This document shows, one piece after another, positions 1,331 through 36,546 of a DNA stretch of 43,368 nt. Where the stretch lies: contig JAUSHX010000004.1 of assembly GCA_030648265.1 (NCBI GenBank), positions 1-43,368 of the forward strand. Direction: 5' to 3'. The translations under genes and the position numbers were made by a program. The notes under the pieces were generated by a model. That model made no database searches. It had not been told where the DNA came from and saw nothing but the letters and a program-made list of their open reading frames with translations. The DNA is from a bacterium (GTDB lineage Bacteria; Patescibacteriota; Minisyncoccia; Phycocordibacterales; UBA2100). Positions within the stretch are counted from its first letter, which is position 1; every line of letters begins with the position of its first letter.

Positions 1331-1390
1331 AACCTTTATTAAAGAGACTAGACATCTGCCGATTAAATCATTTGTTGAACTGTTTAATCA

Positions 1391-1430
1391 ATATTCCATT
1401 TCTTACGCCATGGCGTAAGAAATGGAATAT
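1391..1430. repeat. Palindrome family A, copy A1 (perfect, 40 bp)
   Basis: A perfect 40-bp palindrome with arm ATATTCCATTTCTTACGCCA and an NcoI-like CCATGG centre, with no loop. It lies 24 bp beyond the stop codon of the Cas2/PaaX-like gene. Related copies are at 2037-2072 and 5232-5271. Confidence 0.95.
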
Positions 1431-1454
1431 TACGAAATTCAAAACCAGAACAAA

Positions 1455-2036
1455 TTATTGCAGGCCAAAGTGCCGCTTAATCCATGCATCGTTCTCAATT
1501 GAGTCAACAACTGCGTATAGCAACTCTTTTCCAATTCTCATATCCGATTTAACGAGAGTAATCAGTTCTTCGCAATCGTACGGAAATAACCACACGCTGT
1601 TCTGCAGGCGCAAGAACCCGCACTCGCGCAGGATGTGGCGTACGCTGTCCCGCATAGTCTTGCGCTTTTGCGGAATATCAAACATGACTAGCCGATAACG
1701 CTTGTCCCATCGCTTGCCTCGCATGGCCAGAAGCCGCGCTTTTTGTTGCTCAATGGAAAGGGCGCGCTTGCCGGCATCGGTAATTTCAATCCACTTCTTT
1801 CCGTTCTTTTCAACAAACCGTACATGCCCCTTAATGGCGAGACGCGAAGCGGCGGTGCGAGCCTGAAAAGCGAGCTTGTAGCGCTTTTTCCCCATGATGC
1901 GCGGGAGCGCTTGGAAAATATTTGGCGCAATCATTGTTACGGCAAGAATACCCGCAATTCCGATAGTGGCTAGAACTGCTCCCTGAATATTTCTTCTCTT
2001 GCGTCTTTTCTCCGCAATCCGTTCAACGTTTCCCAT
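1455..2036 (-). CDS. Cas2/PaaX-like protein with N-terminal hydrophobic segment
   Basis: 193 residues. Residues 16-45 form a hydrophobic, probably membrane-spanning segment. About 50-95 looks like a winged helix (ending in EITDAGKRAL), and 110-193 is a Cas2-like ferredoxin-fold domain as in the centre of PaaX regulators, with the landmarks RLVMFDIP, GFLRLQNSVWLFP and CEEL. Such proteins are often annotated Cas2 in CPR genomes, but there is no cas1 or CRISPR array here. The ATG at 2036 is chosen because it directly abuts palindrome A2 and a TAGAAT -10-like box lies 7 nt upstream inside that palindrome. An earlier start would translate the palindrome itself. About 44% of the Cas2-like domain is identical to the protein at 35912-36484. 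Function is unknown; DNA binding to the palindromes is a hypothesis. Confidence 0.75.
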   Translation of the reverse strand: MGNVERIAEKRRKRRNIQGAVLATIGIAGILAVTMIAPNIFQALPRIMGKKRYKLAFQARTAASRLAIKGHVRFVEKNGKKWIEITDAGKRALSIEQQKARLLAMRGKRWDKRYRLVMFDIPQKRKTMRDSVRHILRECGFLRLQNSVWLFPYDCEELITLVKSDMRIGKELLYAVVDSIENDAWIKRHFGLQ

Positions 2037-2072
2037 ATTCCATATTCTACGCCATGGCGTAGAATATGGAAT
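2037..2072. repeat. Palindrome family A, copy A2 (perfect, 36 bp)
   Basis: Perfect 36-bp palindrome with arm ATTCCATATTCTACGCCA. It sits immediately upstream of the minus-strand Cas2/PaaX-like start and between two divergent genes. Both strands contain TAGAAT, a reasonable -10 hexamer, so it may be a two-way promoter or operator. Its right flank TTGTTTT is shared with copy A3. Confidence 0.95.
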
Positions 2073-2189: not shown

Positions 2190-2804
2190 ATGACCACTAC
2201 GAAAATGCCGGGCGAATCAACTATAAGCAAAGATTGGAAGCCGATATACCGGAGATGGTGGTTTTGGGTTCTCGCCACACCGCTTATTCTTTTTATCGCA
2301 ATCGTCATCTATCGCATTCCTTTTGTGATAGAGAAGGAGAAGACGCAACAGGTGATCGCGCAAATTCATGCGCAAAAGCTGACAATAAACGACGTGAACG
2401 GCGAACATCTTCCGCCACCGCCCGACCCCACGCAAGTGGATGCAACGATTGAAGGAGTGGATGCAAATGGAAACGGCATCCGAGATGATGTTGAGTTAGC
2501 GATTTTCAAAAAGTATCCCAATTCCGCAAAAATCCGCGCGGCGGAGTTGCAGTATGCAAAGGCGTTGCAAAAGGAGTTCACGTCTGTGTTTAATTCGGAG
2601 ACGCTAGTTGCTGTGATTCAAGAGGAAGGTAGAGGTAGTGTTTGCATTCTAAATTCCAAGCGAACTCAAGAAATAGAGGATTTGGTATTTAACACAGATG
2701 CTCGCAAGAAAGCCCAGGAGGATTTGTATAGAAAGTTTATGACATCGTACGCTCTTCCTAATTCGGACTATTGTGACATTGACCCCAAAATACTTGCAAA
2801 TTAA
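2190..2804 (+). CDS. Single-pass membrane protein with an EF-hand-like calcium motif
   Basis: 204 residues. A basic N-terminus precedes one transmembrane helix at about 24-46 (WWFWVLATPLILFIAIVIYR), with the remainder predicted outside. A proline run at 75-80 leads to DANGNGIRDDVE at 91-102, the spacing of a calcium-binding EF-hand or dockerin-type loop. The C-terminal part has two cysteines and no family I recognise. It is followed after 2 nt by the large secreted protein, so the two probably act together at the cell surface. The start was chosen from an extended -10 box; in-frame ATGs at 2088 and 2151 are alternatives. Confidence 0.7.
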   Translation: MTTTKMPGESTISKDWKPIYRRWWFWVLATPLILFIAIVIYRIPFVIEKEKTQQVIAQIHAQKLTINDVNGEHLPPPPDPTQVDATIEGVDANGNGIRDDVELAIFKKYPNSAKIRAAELQYAKALQKEFTSVFNSETLVAVIQEEGRGSVCILNSKRTQEIEDLVFNTDARKKAQEDLYRKFMTSYALPNSDYCDIDPKILAN

Positions 2805-2806
2805 AC

Positions 2807-5170
2807 ATGCGGATTCTCATTACAGTAATAGTGCTTGTACTTTTTCCGGTTGCCACCTTTGCTGCCTCTTGTAGTCCGTCTGGTATGACGGTAGTTTACG
2901 TTAATGGAATTCTTACAACCTACCCTGAAGCAAAAAGAGACTTGGGTGTATTACAAACAGAATACATAGCAAGGACCAGTGATTATTCCACTAATTTCCT
3001 AACTGGCTACAACGAATCTCACATCGCTGGCTTTGGCGATACGCTCCAATCAATCGCGCAGGCATTTGGGACTTCAATCACGGACTTTGACCGAAATACG
3101 ATATTGATGCAAATCCAGCCGCAAGTGTCCACGCGGAAGATTCTTCTTGTCGGGCATTCGCAGGGCACTTTCTATACAAACTCAATGTATAAATATCTTA
3201 CTGATAATGGAGTGCCAAAAGAATCAATCGCCGTATACAACCTTGCGACTCCAGCAGACCACGTGGAAGGTAGCGGCGGTTATCTCACTTCTACAAACGA
3301 CAGGGTAATCAATGGTGTTCGGCCGTTGATGGCTAAGTATGGTGCGCTACCACCGCTCGCCGCGAACATCGCAATCTCTATTCCCGCAGACGAAATAAAT
3401 GACAAAAACGGCGGACATCATTTCGGAAGCAGTTACCTCGCAATGGAACCGGACAGAATCGTTTCCGATATCACGAACGCCCTGGGAAATCTGGAAGCGG
3501 GAGTTTCATCGTCCAGTGACGGATGCTTCACCCCTCCGCCCAAAACTCTCGGATACAAAACACAGGCGGCAGTGTTTGCGATTGCCGACCCGCTTTCGCA
3601 AAAAGCGGTCAATGGAATTGGAGCGACAGGAAACGCAATAGTGGCGGCGGCGCGGAAAGCATCTGCGGCTGCTGCATACGCAATGGCACAAATACGAAAC
3701 ATATTTGCCAGTGCGAGCTCGGCGTCCGGTAGTGTAAGTGCGGCAAGCCAAATTGCCGCGATTTCGGCGGCATCGCTCAAATTGTCTCCGGCAACTAATA
3801 ATACTAATCCTCCGAAAACGACTGTTGCATCTGTGCCCACGCCGCCGCCCGCGCCCGTACAAACCGCAGTAATTCCGCTGAAGGAAACACCTGTTACAGC
3901 ACCTGATTCGCCGCCAGTGCAACCGCATATTCAACCGCCAATTCCCACTCCGCCGGTATTTGGGCCGGAACTGATTAGCGTCGCTCCCGGATTTGGAGGA
4001 GGCGGAGCAGGTGCTCCGGTTCCTAGCCCGGTTGCCGAAGCGCCTGCCCCAGCATATGTTCCCCTCTCCGTTCAAGCGCCCCCAGAAGGGGCGCTTTTTT
4101 CAACATCTTCTGTCACATTCACCGGCACGACCACACCCGGCTATTCGGTAGTTGCTTCGTATGCGAGCATCGCAGTCGCGACTGTTGCCGATACAAACGG
4201 CAACTGGTCTATCGCTCTTACATTACCGGAAGGCGCGACCGCGGTTGGCATCGTTGCCGCCGACAGCGCGGGAAATACATCAGATGCCATTACGCGCACT
4301 GTTACCATTGACACCACTCCGCCAGGCGCACCCTCTCCATCTCTTTCAGAATGCGCGGCATCCCTCTCAACAAGTTTTTGCCTCATCTCAACTACAAGCG
4401 CAACGCTCGCCTGGCCGCCAGTCACAGGCACTGCGTATTATGCGTATTCTATAAACGGGTCAACTTTTGCAACGACGACTGAAACCGGAGTAACGCTTTC
4501 CCTCTCACCAAGCGCATCCACGACCATTTCCGTCGCGGCATACGACGTACTTGGAAATGCCGCGACATCTACTCCCGTAGAAACATATGTGCTGACAAAC
4601 CCGATTATCATCAATGAGGTTGCATGGGCGGGGACAAAAGCAGGCGCTCAAGACAAATGGATAGAATTGAAAAATATCTCACCGTATTACATCGGCAGTC
4701 TATCGCACGTAGCAATCATTTCTGTAGACGGTTCGCCATATCTGCAGCTTTACGGTGATATCCCGCCAGGCGGTTTTTATCTTATTGAAAGTCGTGACGA
4801 ATCTACGAGTGCCGCAGGCAATTTCATAACTCCTCTTGATGCACTTTCGCAGGTAGGAGAGGAATTGAAGCTGAATTGGGGCAGTGGAAATGCGACAACA
4901 ACTCTTGATCGTACGCCTGCTGTTTCCGTATGTGGCGGTTGGTGCCCGGGGATGGACGCAAGTTGGCTAGCAAACTTCCTATCTAATCCAATGACCATGG
5001 AACGCAAGGCCACTGGGTCAGACGGTGCGAATGCCGGGAGTTGGCAATTTGGCGCATCGGGTGTTCCGGAGGCGACAGACAGCGCGGGCAATGTGATATT
5101 GGGGACCCCTCATGCCGAAAACAGTGCCGGCGGAATCTGGCCGCCTCTGCTTTTTGATGGCATGCTTTAA
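2807..5170 (+). CDS. Secreted alpha/beta-hydrolase-like protein with Ig-like and lamin-tail domains
   Basis: 787 residues. A signal peptide (1-20, ending TFAAS) leads into an alpha/beta-hydrolase-like domain with the nucleophile elbow GHSQG (Ser118) and a possible catalytic histidine in GGHHFG. Next come an Ala-rich helix (about 270-330), a Pro/Thr-rich linker (about 335-400), and bacterial Ig-like repeats with DTNGNWS and TVTIDTTPPGAP. From about 598 to 760 lies a lamin-tail domain beginning IIINEVAWAGT and including KWIELKN. Such tails occur on extracellular bacterial proteins. The likely role is a surface esterase or lipase-like enzyme held by adhesive domains; the substrate is unknown. 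An intrinsic-terminator-like hairpin lies inside the coding sequence at 4074-4100, at the junction of linker and Ig-like domain. Confidence 0.75.
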   Translation: MRILITVIVLVLFPVATFAASCSPSGMTVVYVNGILTTYPEAKRDLGVLQTEYIARTSDYSTNFLTGYNESHIAGFGDTLQSIAQAFGTSITDFDRNTILMQIQPQVSTRKILLVGHSQGTFYTNSMYKYLTDNGVPKESIAVYNLATPADHVEGSGGYLTSTNDRVINGVRPLMAKYGALPPLAANIAISIPADEINDKNGGHHFGSSYLAMEPDRIVSDITNALGNLEAGVSSSSDGCFTPPPKTLGYKTQAAVFAIADPLSQKAVNGIGATGNAIVAAARKASAAAAYAMAQIRNIFASASSASGSVSAASQIAAISAASLKLSPATNNTNPPKTTVASVPTPPPAPVQTAVIPLKETPVTAPDSPPVQPHIQPPIPTPPVFGPELISVAPGFGGGGAGAPVPSPVAEAPAPAYVPLSVQAPPEGALFSTSSVTFTGTTTPGYSVVASYASIAVATVADTNGNWSIALTLPEGATAVGIVAADSAGNTSDAITRTVTIDTTPPGAPSPSLSECAASLSTSFCLISTTSATLAWPPVTGTAYYAYSINGSTFATTTETGVTLSLSPSASTTISVAAYDVLGNAATSTPVETYVLTNPIIINEVAWAGTKAGAQDKWIELKNISPYYIGSLSHVAIISVDGSPYLQLYGDIPPGGFYLIESRDESTSAAGNFITPLDALSQVGEELKLNWGSGNATTTLDRTPAVSVCGGWCPGMDASWLANFLSNPMTMERKATGSDGANAGSWQFGASGVPEATDSAGNVILGTPHAENSAGGIWPPLLFDGML
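4074..4100 (+). terminator. Intrinsic-terminator-like hairpin inside the reading frame
   Basis: Stem AAGCGCCCC, loop CAGAA, GGGGCGCTT, then a run ending in six T residues. By shape this is a textbook Rho-independent terminator, yet it is fully translated (QAPPEGALFS) in the middle of the large secreted protein. It could attenuate transcription when translation lags or mark an old gene fusion point. Confidence 0.6.
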
Positions 5171-5231: not shown

Positions 5232-5271
5232 ATATTCCATATCCTACGCCATGGCGTAGGATATGGAATAT
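5232..5271. repeat. Palindrome family A, solo copy A3 (perfect, 40 bp)
   Basis: Perfect 40-bp palindrome with arm ATATTCCATATCCTACGCCA, standing alone between two plus-strand genes in the 5171-5397 spacer. It differs from A1 and A2 at a few arm positions, each change mirrored in the other arm. The rest of the spacer shows nothing recognisable. Confidence 0.95.
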
Positions 5272-5397
5272 TGTTTTGTATCAATTTTGTGAACAGACTG
5301 ATGCAGGGATTGATACACAGATAAATAAATGCGCACTACTGAGAGGGTGCAGGCGAATCTTGCGCGTTCGGGAAAAAACGGCAATAATGCGCGGATT

Positions 5398-14004: not shown

Positions 14005-14046
14005 GTATAACTCCAGCTTGTGCGGCCGCACCAGCTAACGCTATAC
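14005..14046. repeat. Palindrome family B, solo copy B1 (imperfect, 42 bp)
   Basis: Quasi-palindrome centred on GCGGCCGC with outer arms GTATA...TATAC and five or six unpaired positions within the 21-bp arms. It lies between convergent genes and includes the stop codon of the GT-C gene at 14041. Other B copies are at 32598, 35864 and 36497; this one is in the opposite orientation to B3 and B4. The remaining 13954-14004 bases show no feature. Confidence 0.85.
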
Positions 14047-15453
14047 AATCCGCTCCTCTCCCTTTCCCCGTATATGCAGCCACACTGTGTACGCACCAAA
14101 GCAGCCGAGCAGTAAGAGAAACGGCTCCAGAGGCATGCGATAGCGCGTATCGTCGCTCACCGGCCCTGTCAAAATAGCAAATGCATTGAGTAAAATAAAA
14201 GCGCAGACGATCCATGACACATGCGCGCTTCGGCGGCGTATCGCGCGTATGGTCGCGTAGAGGGCGCTCACGTAGATAAGAGCCCACAATATCCTTTCTA
14301 TGAGCCGCGGTATGTGGGTGAATGTCTGGATGAACGCATCGCGATATTTATGTTGAGTGAGCATTCCCCACGCGCCTTCTCCCTGCGCATGTTCGCCCGA
14401 GAGAATCCCGAACTGATGCATGTGGTAGGTCACATTAACGATGCTTGAACCGACAAAAAGCTGCGCAGATTTGAAGAGGTGGAACAACATGTATTGAAAC
14501 GGGTGGGCGAGCAGTACCTCGTGCGCGATTGCGACCTCTTCATCCGCGTATTTAAACGAGCGCAGGATGTGTTCATCGTTTGTGCCAAAGCGCTCGTTAA
14601 ATTTTTTCTGGAGCGCGAGGTATGAAGTACCGGTGCGCACTTGTTCAAAGAGCGGCATATTGTTGGCATAGAGGCCATAGGAACCGGTTGACGAGAACGC
14701 AAAGTGACCGGAGAGTATGTAATTGCGCACCATCCATGGACTTATGAGGCATATGAGAGCGATGAAAAAGACAGCTATGTTGCGAATCGCAGTACGCCAT
14801 GATTGCTCGCGCGCGAGCGCCATGCACGCGATAATCGGCGCCACATACAGCCCAATGGGGCGCATATAAACGGAAATGGCCAGCAGAATTCCTGCGGCGG
14901 CAAAGGGCACCCACACGCGCCGCGCCTCTACCCCTATTGCGTACACGCTTCCCATGAGGAACAGCATGAACAGCGGTTCAGAAATCGGGACCCACGCGGC
15001 ATAGATAACTATTGGGTCTATCATATAGATTGCCGCGGCGGCAATCGCAACGGGACGCGGAAAATACCGCACGCCGATTAGGTAAATGAGAGCGACGGTA
15101 CACGCGGTAATAAGGATTTGAAGAAGCGGTACGACAATAAGCGTGCGGAATATAAGAAGAACGAGTGCGAGAAATACCGGATATCCGGGCACGCGCAAAA
15201 ATTCAGTTCCGCTGTCCGGAAGAGAAAACTGCCCCTGTTCCAGCATTGAATGGGCGAGATTAATATATTCTGTTACATCCGACGTGCCGACTTGATTGAG
15301 CGCGAGCATCTTTTCCAGACTCACGCCATTCGCCGACCCCAGGAAAAAAACGACGGAAAAAATGAAAATGTAGAGAACGATGCATGCGCTCGCAAGTAAG
15401 CTGGCAACATACGCGTCTGAGCGTTCACGGTGCAACCCGCTGTCGATAGTCAT
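14041..15453 (-). CDS. GT-C membrane glycosyltransferase (GT39/ArnT-like)
   Basis: 470 residues, with about ten hydrophobic helices. After the first helix comes an external loop with TSDVTEYINLAHSMLEQG and FLRVPGYPVFLAL, the pattern of ArnT/PMT-like enzymes (acidic residue in loop 1 and an R-PGYP motif). It should use a lipid-phosphate sugar at the outer membrane face. The ATG at 15453 has an extended -10 box (TGT-TATACT, 15474-15479 on the minus strand) 20 nt upstream. An upstream in-frame region to 15687 overlaps the divergent gene and is unlikely. Its last codons form part of palindrome B1. Confidence 0.8.
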   Translation of the reverse strand: MTIDSGLHRERSDAYVASLLASACIVLYIFIFSVVFFLGSANGVSLEKMLALNQVGTSDVTEYINLAHSMLEQGQFSLPDSGTEFLRVPGYPVFLALVLLIFRTLIVVPLLQILITACTVALIYLIGVRYFPRPVAIAAAAIYMIDPIVIYAAWVPISEPLFMLFLMGSVYAIGVEARRVWVPFAAAGILLAISVYMRPIGLYVAPIIACMALAREQSWRTAIRNIAVFFIALICLISPWMVRNYILSGHFAFSSTGSYGLYANNMPLFEQVRTGTSYLALQKKFNERFGTNDEHILRSFKYADEEVAIAHEVLLAHPFQYMLFHLFKSAQLFVGSSIVNVTYHMHQFGILSGEHAQGEGAWGMLTQHKYRDAFIQTFTHIPRLIERILWALIYVSALYATIRAIRRRSAHVSWIVCAFILLNAFAILTGPVSDDTRYRMPLEPFLLLLGCFGAYTVWLHIRGKGEERIV

Positions 15454-32597: not shown

Positions 32598-32639
32598 ATA
32601 TAACTCCAGCTAATGCGGCCGCATTAGCTGGAGTTATAT
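32598..32639. repeat. Palindrome family B, solo copy B2 (perfect, 42 bp)
   Basis: Perfect 42-bp palindrome with arm ATATAACTCCAGCTAATGCG and a GCGGCCGC centre, in the spacer between divergent genes. It is the only perfect B copy. Repeat family C copy 2 begins 2 nt later. Confidence 0.95.
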
Positions 32640-35846: not shown

Positions 35847-35863
35847 TCTGCATTCGCTAGCAT

Positions 35864-35901
35864 ATAACGCTTGCTAATGCGGCCGCATCAGCTAGAGTTA
35901 T
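35864..35901. repeat. Palindrome family B, copy B3 (left boundary of element B)
   Basis: 38-bp quasi-palindrome around GCGGCCGC with 3 of 19 pairs mismatched. It reads ATAACGCTTGCTAATGCGG on the left arm, identical to copy B4. It ends 10 bp before the Cas2/PaaX-like ATG. The right edge gives TTATGT, a possible -10 box 8 nt before that ATG. Confidence 0.9.
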
Positions 35902-35911
35902 GTAGTTACTT

Positions 35912-36484
35912 ATGAGTCGTGAAAAATCTATGCGACTGAAGAAACGTGCCAGACAGCTCGGTCCCATTGAACGAGAGGTGTTGAACGAGCTTTCTTTCGG
36001 CGACCTGATCTACGGCTTCCTTCTTTCCGCAAGATCGACGAGGCGATTTTACAAGCTTGCGCGCGAGCGTGCCAACTATCGCTATCGCCGCAAACTCGCC
36101 GTGGAGCGTTTGGTGGAGCTTGACTATATCCGTGAACGCGGAGAACGATTGAACATTACTGCCGCCGGACAGAGCGCCCTCGGACAGGTCATCGGTAAAA
36201 CTCTTGAACTGCTCAAAACAAAAAAATGGGACGGAAAATGGCGCATCGCCGTTTTCGACATTCCGGAAGTATACGCACCGCTGCGGAATAGAGTGAGAAC
36301 TATTTTGAAAAGAGCAGGATTTGTTAAGCTTCAGCACAGTATTTGGATATTTCCGCACGAGTGCGAAGAACTCGTACGACTAATCAAAGAAGAATCGAGA
36401 CTATCACAGTACATCCTGTATGGAGTGTTAGACCGAATTGAAGACGAGAATCGGTTGAAGAAGTTATTTCATCTGGATGTGTAG
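35912..36484 (+). CDS. Cas2/PaaX-like protein without membrane segment
   Basis: 190 residues. A basic N-terminus (1-20) and winged-helix region (20-100, ending RLNITAAGQSALG) precede a Cas2-like domain (106-190) with RIAVFDIP, GFVKLQHSIWIFP and CEELVRLI. The C-terminal domain is about 44% identical to that of the protein at 1455-2036, while the N-termini differ (no hydrophobic segment here). No cas1, array or other cas gene is near. The architecture resembles PaaX-type regulators without their last domain. It may bind the flanking palindromes; unproven. Confidence 0.75.
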   Translation: MSREKSMRLKKRARQLGPIEREVLNELSFGDLIYGFLLSARSTRRFYKLARERANYRYRRKLAVERLVELDYIRERGERLNITAAGQSALGQVIGKTLELLKTKKWDGKWRIAVFDIPEVYAPLRNRVRTILKRAGFVKLQHSIWIFPHECEELVRLIKEESRLSQYILYGVLDRIEDENRLKKLFHLDV

Positions 36485-36496
36485 TCAGGCAATATC

Positions 36497-36536
36497 TATA
36501 ACGCTTGCTAATGCGGCCGCATTTGCTGGAGTTATA
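36497..36536. repeat. Palindrome family B, copy B4 (right boundary of element B)
   Basis: 40-bp quasi-palindrome around GCGGCCGC, with three mismatches and one G-T in 20 pairs. Same left arm as B3; it starts 12 bp after the Cas2/PaaX-like stop. Confidence 0.9.
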
Positions 36537-36546
36537 TACTCGATTC

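Follow-up and report, generated by a model that had tools for sequence, protein, structure and literature searches.

A short PaaX-type gene between two copies of its own palindrome family is a recurrent arrangement in Patescibacteria

The window, which is the whole 43,368-nucleotide stretch of DNA that was analysed, contains a gene for a short PaaX-type protein placed between two long palindromes of one family. This arrangement is a recurrent pattern of which the window is one case. The hosts are tiny, mostly uncultured bacteria, the Patescibacteria. Their genomes are small, and few regulators or mobile elements are known in them; yet the gene family is present in a third of the genomes sampled across the phylum (79 of 240, with a maximum of 11 copies). 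It is moderately probable, in our assessment, that the unit encodes a PaaX-type protein that regulates its own gene and has a dispersed family of palindromes to itself, in a layout that resembles REP/RAYT systems but is not homologous to them. The features of the window are listed in Table 1.

Table 1. Coordinates of the two bracketed genes and of the related palindromic sites in the window.
Feature	Position	Strand	Description
Element A downstream site (D)	1390..1431	no strand	42-bp perfect palindrome, 23 bp past the stop codon
Element A gene	1455..2036	minus	582 bp including stop; 193-aa short PaaX-like protein, winged helix and Cas2-like domain
Element A upstream site (U)	2037..2072	no strand	36-bp perfect palindrome adjoining the start codon
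Solo A site	5232..5271	no strand	40-bp perfect palindrome; the UDP-glucose dehydrogenase-like ORF at 5329 lies 58 bp further on
Degenerate solo B copy	14006..14047	no strand	26/38 identical to the B downstream site; flanking ORFs appear convergent
Solo B site	32598..32639	no strand	42-bp perfect palindrome between divergent ORFs
Element B upstream site	35863..35904	no strand	imperfect palindrome
Element B gene	35912..36484	plus	190-aa paralogue, PF20803
Element B downstream site	36497..36538	no strand	imperfect palindrome, 12 bp past the stop

A sequence-only reading of this DNA had described two perfect palindromes of one family that bound the 582-bp gene with almost no spare bases and a third copy alone at 5232. 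Both observations hold: the bracketing palindromes are 42 and 36 bp long with gaps of 23 and 0 bp to the gene, and all three sites belong to one family. The D site of element A scores 42.9 bits with the covariance model in its 38-bp frame (1392-1429). The U site has TAGAAT at the -10 position and is probably the gene's own promoter and operator. A fourth A copy is located on another contig of the same genome (C20:62934), which was covered by pattern and family searches and by reading of individual stretches. The count of four A copies in this genome (G000) is from the exact-centre search only; the covariance search, with its loose first look, missed known sites. The sequence-only reading had overlooked element B (35863-36538), a second bracketed PaaX_M gene with the same design and a different palindrome.

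PF20803 genes number 11 in the 943-kb genome. A clear palindrome pair of the gene's own family flanks six of them, and others have a degenerate pair. Most of the related genes tested carry such a private pair; matched sites of 38-40 bp at the start codon and just past the stop codon were found in 85 of 120 related Patescibacteria gene entries (the number after removal of a few duplicate records). The same layout was found at loci from 36 of 60 relatives and at 80 loci from a scan of one-per-species genomes, all in Patescibacteria. The scan was run with a 4-protein alignment; an 8-protein alignment was too diverse for that use. As a control, 704 neighbouring ORFs were scored in the same way as the elements. 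Of 111 elements, 42% had at least 14 of 19 positions paired in both flanks, versus 0.1% of the control ORFs, and flank-to-flank similarity (score of at least 20) was found in 80% versus 0.9%. Since the element flanks are far above the controls in both palindromy and mutual similarity, a chance origin of the bracketing palindromes is excluded. The presence of palindromes also follows that of the genes. The covariance model detected them in 15 of 27 congeners with PF20803 genes (Fisher p 0.005, Spearman 0.65), where the zeros are uninformative because the model was built from the same families and takes a loose first look. Palindromes scattered genome-wide with no link to such genes had been named as an outcome that would speak against a mobile element. 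This was checked and was not what was found; none of the 8 congeners without the genes had any.

The 38-bp site, averaged over the 85 matched-flank loci, has symmetric arms at positions 2-10 from each end, with 84-96% pairing at positions 2-8. Positions 11-15 form a less symmetric, variable spacer, and the core at positions 16-18 is 88-100% paired. Central cores seen across the families include CTATAG, CGACCG, CGGCCG, CCATGG and others, and the central hexamer is common to U and D in 72 of 85 loci versus 20 expected on shuffling. The distance from the centre of U to the ATG is 17 or 18 bases in 54 of 62 cases, and a TATAAT-like -10 box is present in U at -12 to -7 from the ATG throughout the family. 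With the box at this position and U ending at the ATG, the promoter is inside the U site and the mRNA is therefore probably leaderless. A tandem gene remnant, of which similarity of U and D past the site would have been a sign, was considered and rejected, since the similarity is at background one base past the site edge.

By sequence and predicted fold, the protein is a short PaaX with a winged helix and a Cas2-like domain. The sequence-only reading had called the gene Cas2/PaaX-like, in agreement with the Pfam matches of protein A to PaaX_M (PF20803, E 3e-16) and Cas2 (PF09827, E 3e-5). The AlphaFold2 model has a mean pLDDT of 83.9 and, among PDB structures, is closest in fold to E. coli PaaX (8a39, with an E of 1.7e-5 over 181 alignment columns). 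The next matches are Rv0674 and a Jannaschia PaaX-like regulator, and Cas2 structures score lower. Protein A reaches 39.9 bits with TIGR02277, the full-length PaaX equivalog, over residues 59-162 only and versus a cut-off of 264.55. With the Cas2 model TIGR01573 (cut-off 24.5) protein A is above the cut-off at 30.5 bits and protein B is below it at 19.3. The PHROGs collection gave no match to the protein.

The protein shares with Cas2 a ferredoxin-like domain with an FDI motif and a Q-x-SVW motif, in addition to the profile matches. It differs from Cas2 in its fused winged helix and in a Cas2 profile match that is weaker than that to PaaX_M, and no Cas1 or CRISPR array was noticed in the element loci, whose neighbours were listed as clusters only. 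The Asp of the FDI motif is invariant in 60 of 60 sequences and is not aligned in the PDB PaaX relatives. We take this residue to be the Cas2 metal-site or catalytic position, where an invariant Asp could indicate nuclease activity. The sequence-only reading had also described the fold as Cas2-like with no visible HUH motif. This agrees with the matches above and with the lack of an H-x-H motif in the sequence; no Y1/IS200-IS605-type transposase was found by Pfam, NCBIfam or fold searches, whose matches were PaaX/Cas2 and winged-helix proteins.

The operator of E. coli PaaX, TGATTC(N27)GAATCA, is a dyad of 39 bp, and PaaX represses its own promoter (PMC9493321). The geometry of the sites described here, which had been found without use of this knowledge, matches that operator: the sites are of 38-40 bp with outer inverted arms, although the arm sequences differ by family. 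The order of winged helix and then Cas2-like domain (PaaX_M) is also the same, and the element has a site on its own promoter, in parallel with the autoregulation of PaaX. PaaX is about 316 aa long, whereas protein A has 193 aa and no match to the PaaX_C effector domain in Pfam or NCBIfam. The element also differs in having a second site past the stop codon and many paralogues per genome, each with its own site, and no phenylacetate genes were noticed near it.

Partial Mantel tests of domain identity against the similarity of site parts were carried out on the 85 loci. The identity of the winged helix tracks the arms, with a partial r of 0.31 (p 0.001), but does not track the core, while that of the Cas2-like domain tracks the core (0.27-0.33, p 0.001) and not the arms. 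The result was unchanged in a repeat on 51 loci thinned to <60% identity. This double dissociation, which is a correlation, is in keeping with a site that is read in two parts, its centre by the Cas2-like domain. Orthologous sites also change in concert across unlinked places. Protein and palindromes have evolved together. The families amount to a natural collection of proteins with their sites, and each of the two domains appears to read its own part of the site. A DNA-reading role for the Cas2-like domain becomes directly testable with them, and the pattern bears on the kinship of PaaX-type repressors, Cas2 and palindrome-linked elements.

The covariation of the winged helix with the arms argues against a reading in which the palindromes are RNA hairpins, either terminators or processing sites, bound by a Cas2-like RNase. 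Perfect stems of 17-19 bp would suit such hairpins, as would the excess of G-T (76) over A-C (45) mismatches in D sites on the gene-sense strand. However, U holds the promoter and is therefore not in the gene's own transcript, and asymmetric central cores occur in either orientation (U and D the same in 19 cases and opposite in 9). An RNA role is therefore considered highly improbable.

In the mechanism that we propose for the autoregulated protein, the unit would consist of the gene and its own family of palindromic sites. The protein would probably bind as a symmetric dimer or higher oligomer, with the winged helices on the outer arms and the Cas2-like domains on the central core. When bound at U it would cover its own promoter and repress it, as PaaX represses Px. 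The D site and the solo copies would be additional cognate sites that keep step with the protein. The whole unit of gene and two sites is slowly gained, lost and relocated and behaves as a semi-autonomous module. Specific binding with autoregulation is the best-supported function because U holds the -10 box and ends at the leaderless ATG.

A rival reading is an ordinary local regulator, in which the solo sites would be operators of a small regulon and D would serve looping or the neighbouring gene. This is possible, and we give it a little over one chance in three. The UDP-glucose dehydrogenase-like gene has the solo A site in front of it both in the window and in L048, and one comEC-linked hydrolase gene is flanked by palindromes in G000, G024 and G019 alike. 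By heuristic gene calls, the 38 classable solo sites fall into 13 co-directional, 10 convergent and 15 divergent gaps, where random intergenic positions give 61, 16 and 23%. Divergent gaps, which are favourable to a regulator, therefore hold 39% of the solo sites versus 23% at random; however, convergent gaps are not avoided (26% versus 16%). Thus, the solo sites prefer gaps between transcription units, yet promoter-less gaps are not avoided. A D site is found with either orientation of the following gene, in counts that pool U and D. Plain regulation does not easily explain the D site, the absence of whole units in relatives, verbatim copies of sites or the solo sites between convergent genes (10 of 38). 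The earlier suggestion of a regulator with dispersed operators is therefore kept in part: the PaaX-like sequence and fold, the PaaX operator geometry and the position of U on its own promoter support it, and D and the convergent solo sites are left unexplained. For these reasons the unit is described here as an autoregulated protein with a dispersed site family, which the protein itself may or may not spread.

The solo site at 5232 and the copy on C20 are identical at 40 of 40 positions, with flanks at chance similarity. Further verbatim solo copies with chance-level flanks were found for L068 (40/40) and L095 (42/42). A solo site of the L007 family on C24 is identical to a downstream site of that family, including its asymmetric spacer, and its flanks are also at chance. 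Verbatim copies of 36-42 bp with unrelated flanks suggest copying and not independent operator evolution. The C20 site lies between convergent genes for a NAD(P)H-hydrate dehydratase-like protein and MiaA and is kept in G024, where its counterpart has mirror-symmetric changes that are the same as in G024's own A-type sites. The counterpart in L048 of the solo A site is at the same place, and a comparison of the window with L048 shows joint change of the sites at this glycosyltransferase-UDP-glucose dehydrogenase locus. Identical solo copies were at one point taken as proof of copying. This was dropped, since the concerted change of orthologous solo sites leaves selection for the best site as an alternative, and an origin of the solo sites by copying is therefore graded as likely.

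Empty sites in relatives had been suggested as a check on mobility. G013 has element A at the corresponding place, and G019 lacks it despite syntenic neighbour genes; the solo A site at 5232 is also missing in G019. The L006 unit is present in G013 and missing in G024 and G019, and the L009 unit is present in G013 and missing in G024 and G003. Whole units are thus missing at syntenic places, in relatives that at 70-82% identity are too diverged for exact junctions; no target-site duplication is visible in the element flanks. Among pairs of related units, 36 have common flanks and 31 have only the unit in common, with at most one in which the similarity starts clearly upstream of the site. The closest homologue pairs are mostly at the same locus. 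The whole-unit absences and unit-only pairs, set against these same-locus pairs, indicate that units are gained, lost and relocated, but slowly. Active transposition is not supported in a simple form, since close homologues are mostly found at one locus, the flanks show no target-site duplication and different species retain orthologous solo sites. Like classical insertion sequences, the unit is short, bounded by repeats, patchy in relatives and missing at syntenic positions. In contrast, its ends are complete palindromes and not terminal inverted repeats, and it has no known transposase domain.

In REP-RAYT systems the gene lies between two cognate palindromes, solo copies are intergenic, protein and palindromes coevolve, the palindromes are tied to the gene and the gene rarely moves (PMC2817692). 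The element is alike in each of these respects. It differs in its PaaX/Cas2-like protein, which is not an IS200/IS605-type transposase, in the few solo copies found per family versus tens to hundreds of REPs, and in the orientation of its sites, as flanking REPs are always inverted and the element sites are not (the asymmetric cores above). The likeness to REP/RAYT noted from the sequence therefore stands for layout, linkage and coevolution; it fails for the protein and any obligatory inversion, and the solo copies found are fewer. No earlier description of a PaaX-type gene between its own palindromes in Patescibacteria was found in the open-licence literature searched.

Another rival reading is a palindrome-spreading element, a functional counterpart to RAYT/REP with a Cas2-like domain as its basis. 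In it the protein would cut or process its palindrome, in double-stranded form or as a folded strand, and thereby copy the site, and on rare occasions the complete unit, into new intergenic places. The bracketing pair on most related genes, the identical copies with unrelated flanks, the syntenic absences and the restriction of homology to the unit in non-syntenic relatives are in its favour. The copy number of 0-11 per congener, the position of 41 of 42 solo sites outside coding sequence and the invariant Asp are also consistent with it. However, the points raised against simple transposition apply here as well, and the conservation of orthologous solo sites across species suggests a function in place. 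Few copies per family were found, the best fold match is a repressor, and no relative was found in viral contigs. Spreading by the protein is therefore doubtful. The mobile-element idea of the sequence-only reading draws real support from the matched brackets, syntenic absences, verbatim solo sites and gene-linked palindromes. It is similarly unlikely, at about one chance in four, that the unit is a new class in which a PaaX/Cas2-fold protein reads the palindrome with two domains and actively copies it, as a system of Patescibacteria that has converged on REP/RAYT, with multiple independent families side by side in a single reduced genome. The gene family also provides names for a class of long perfect palindromes now left blank by annotation.

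The window also has several features beside the sites. The ORFs at 2190-5170 are two, one small and membrane-associated and the other a 787-aa lamin-tail/lipase-like protein by appearance. They separate two genes that are direct neighbours in many congeners, the glycosyltransferase gene and the UDP-glucose dehydrogenase-like one, and recur beside a related unit at another locus (L047). Mobilisation of such cargo between three sites (the window ORFs, L068, L112 and L120) was considered; G019 has the same cargo without the sites, so it is unsupported as a general rule. A dispersed non-coding repeat with small hairpins (TAACGGCTAGCGAGG..., GGTTTAAAACCCCGCGGC...) is located at 1160-1330 and recurs in many congeners.

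Other palindromes were seen elsewhere. On contig C20 the miaA coding sequence contains a 34-bp perfect palindrome (ACACGCAACTCGGACGGCCGTCCGAGTTGCGTGT, at L016:5587-5620) and is unchanged in length, and G024 has no palindrome at that position. A 40-bp relative lies between convergent genes on contig C24 (L220:1538-1577); the cognate gene of this family was not identified in the genome. The comEC-linked metallo-hydrolase gene (L174 on C24, L226, L227) has sites of this type on one or both sides in G000, G024 and G019, and whole units lie near the same comEC-linked genes in L020, L111, L116 and L117. A link to DNA uptake or a tolerant locus are both possible explanations of this association. An 88-bp nearly perfect palindrome near a contig end (L036, G014:C26) includes the D site of that locus and could have arisen as an assembly artefact. 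A further palindrome family, of 32 bp, GTCCACA(A/C)ATAACG..CGTTAT(T/G)TGTGGAC, occurs three times within 6.5 kb in L256 (G015:C11).
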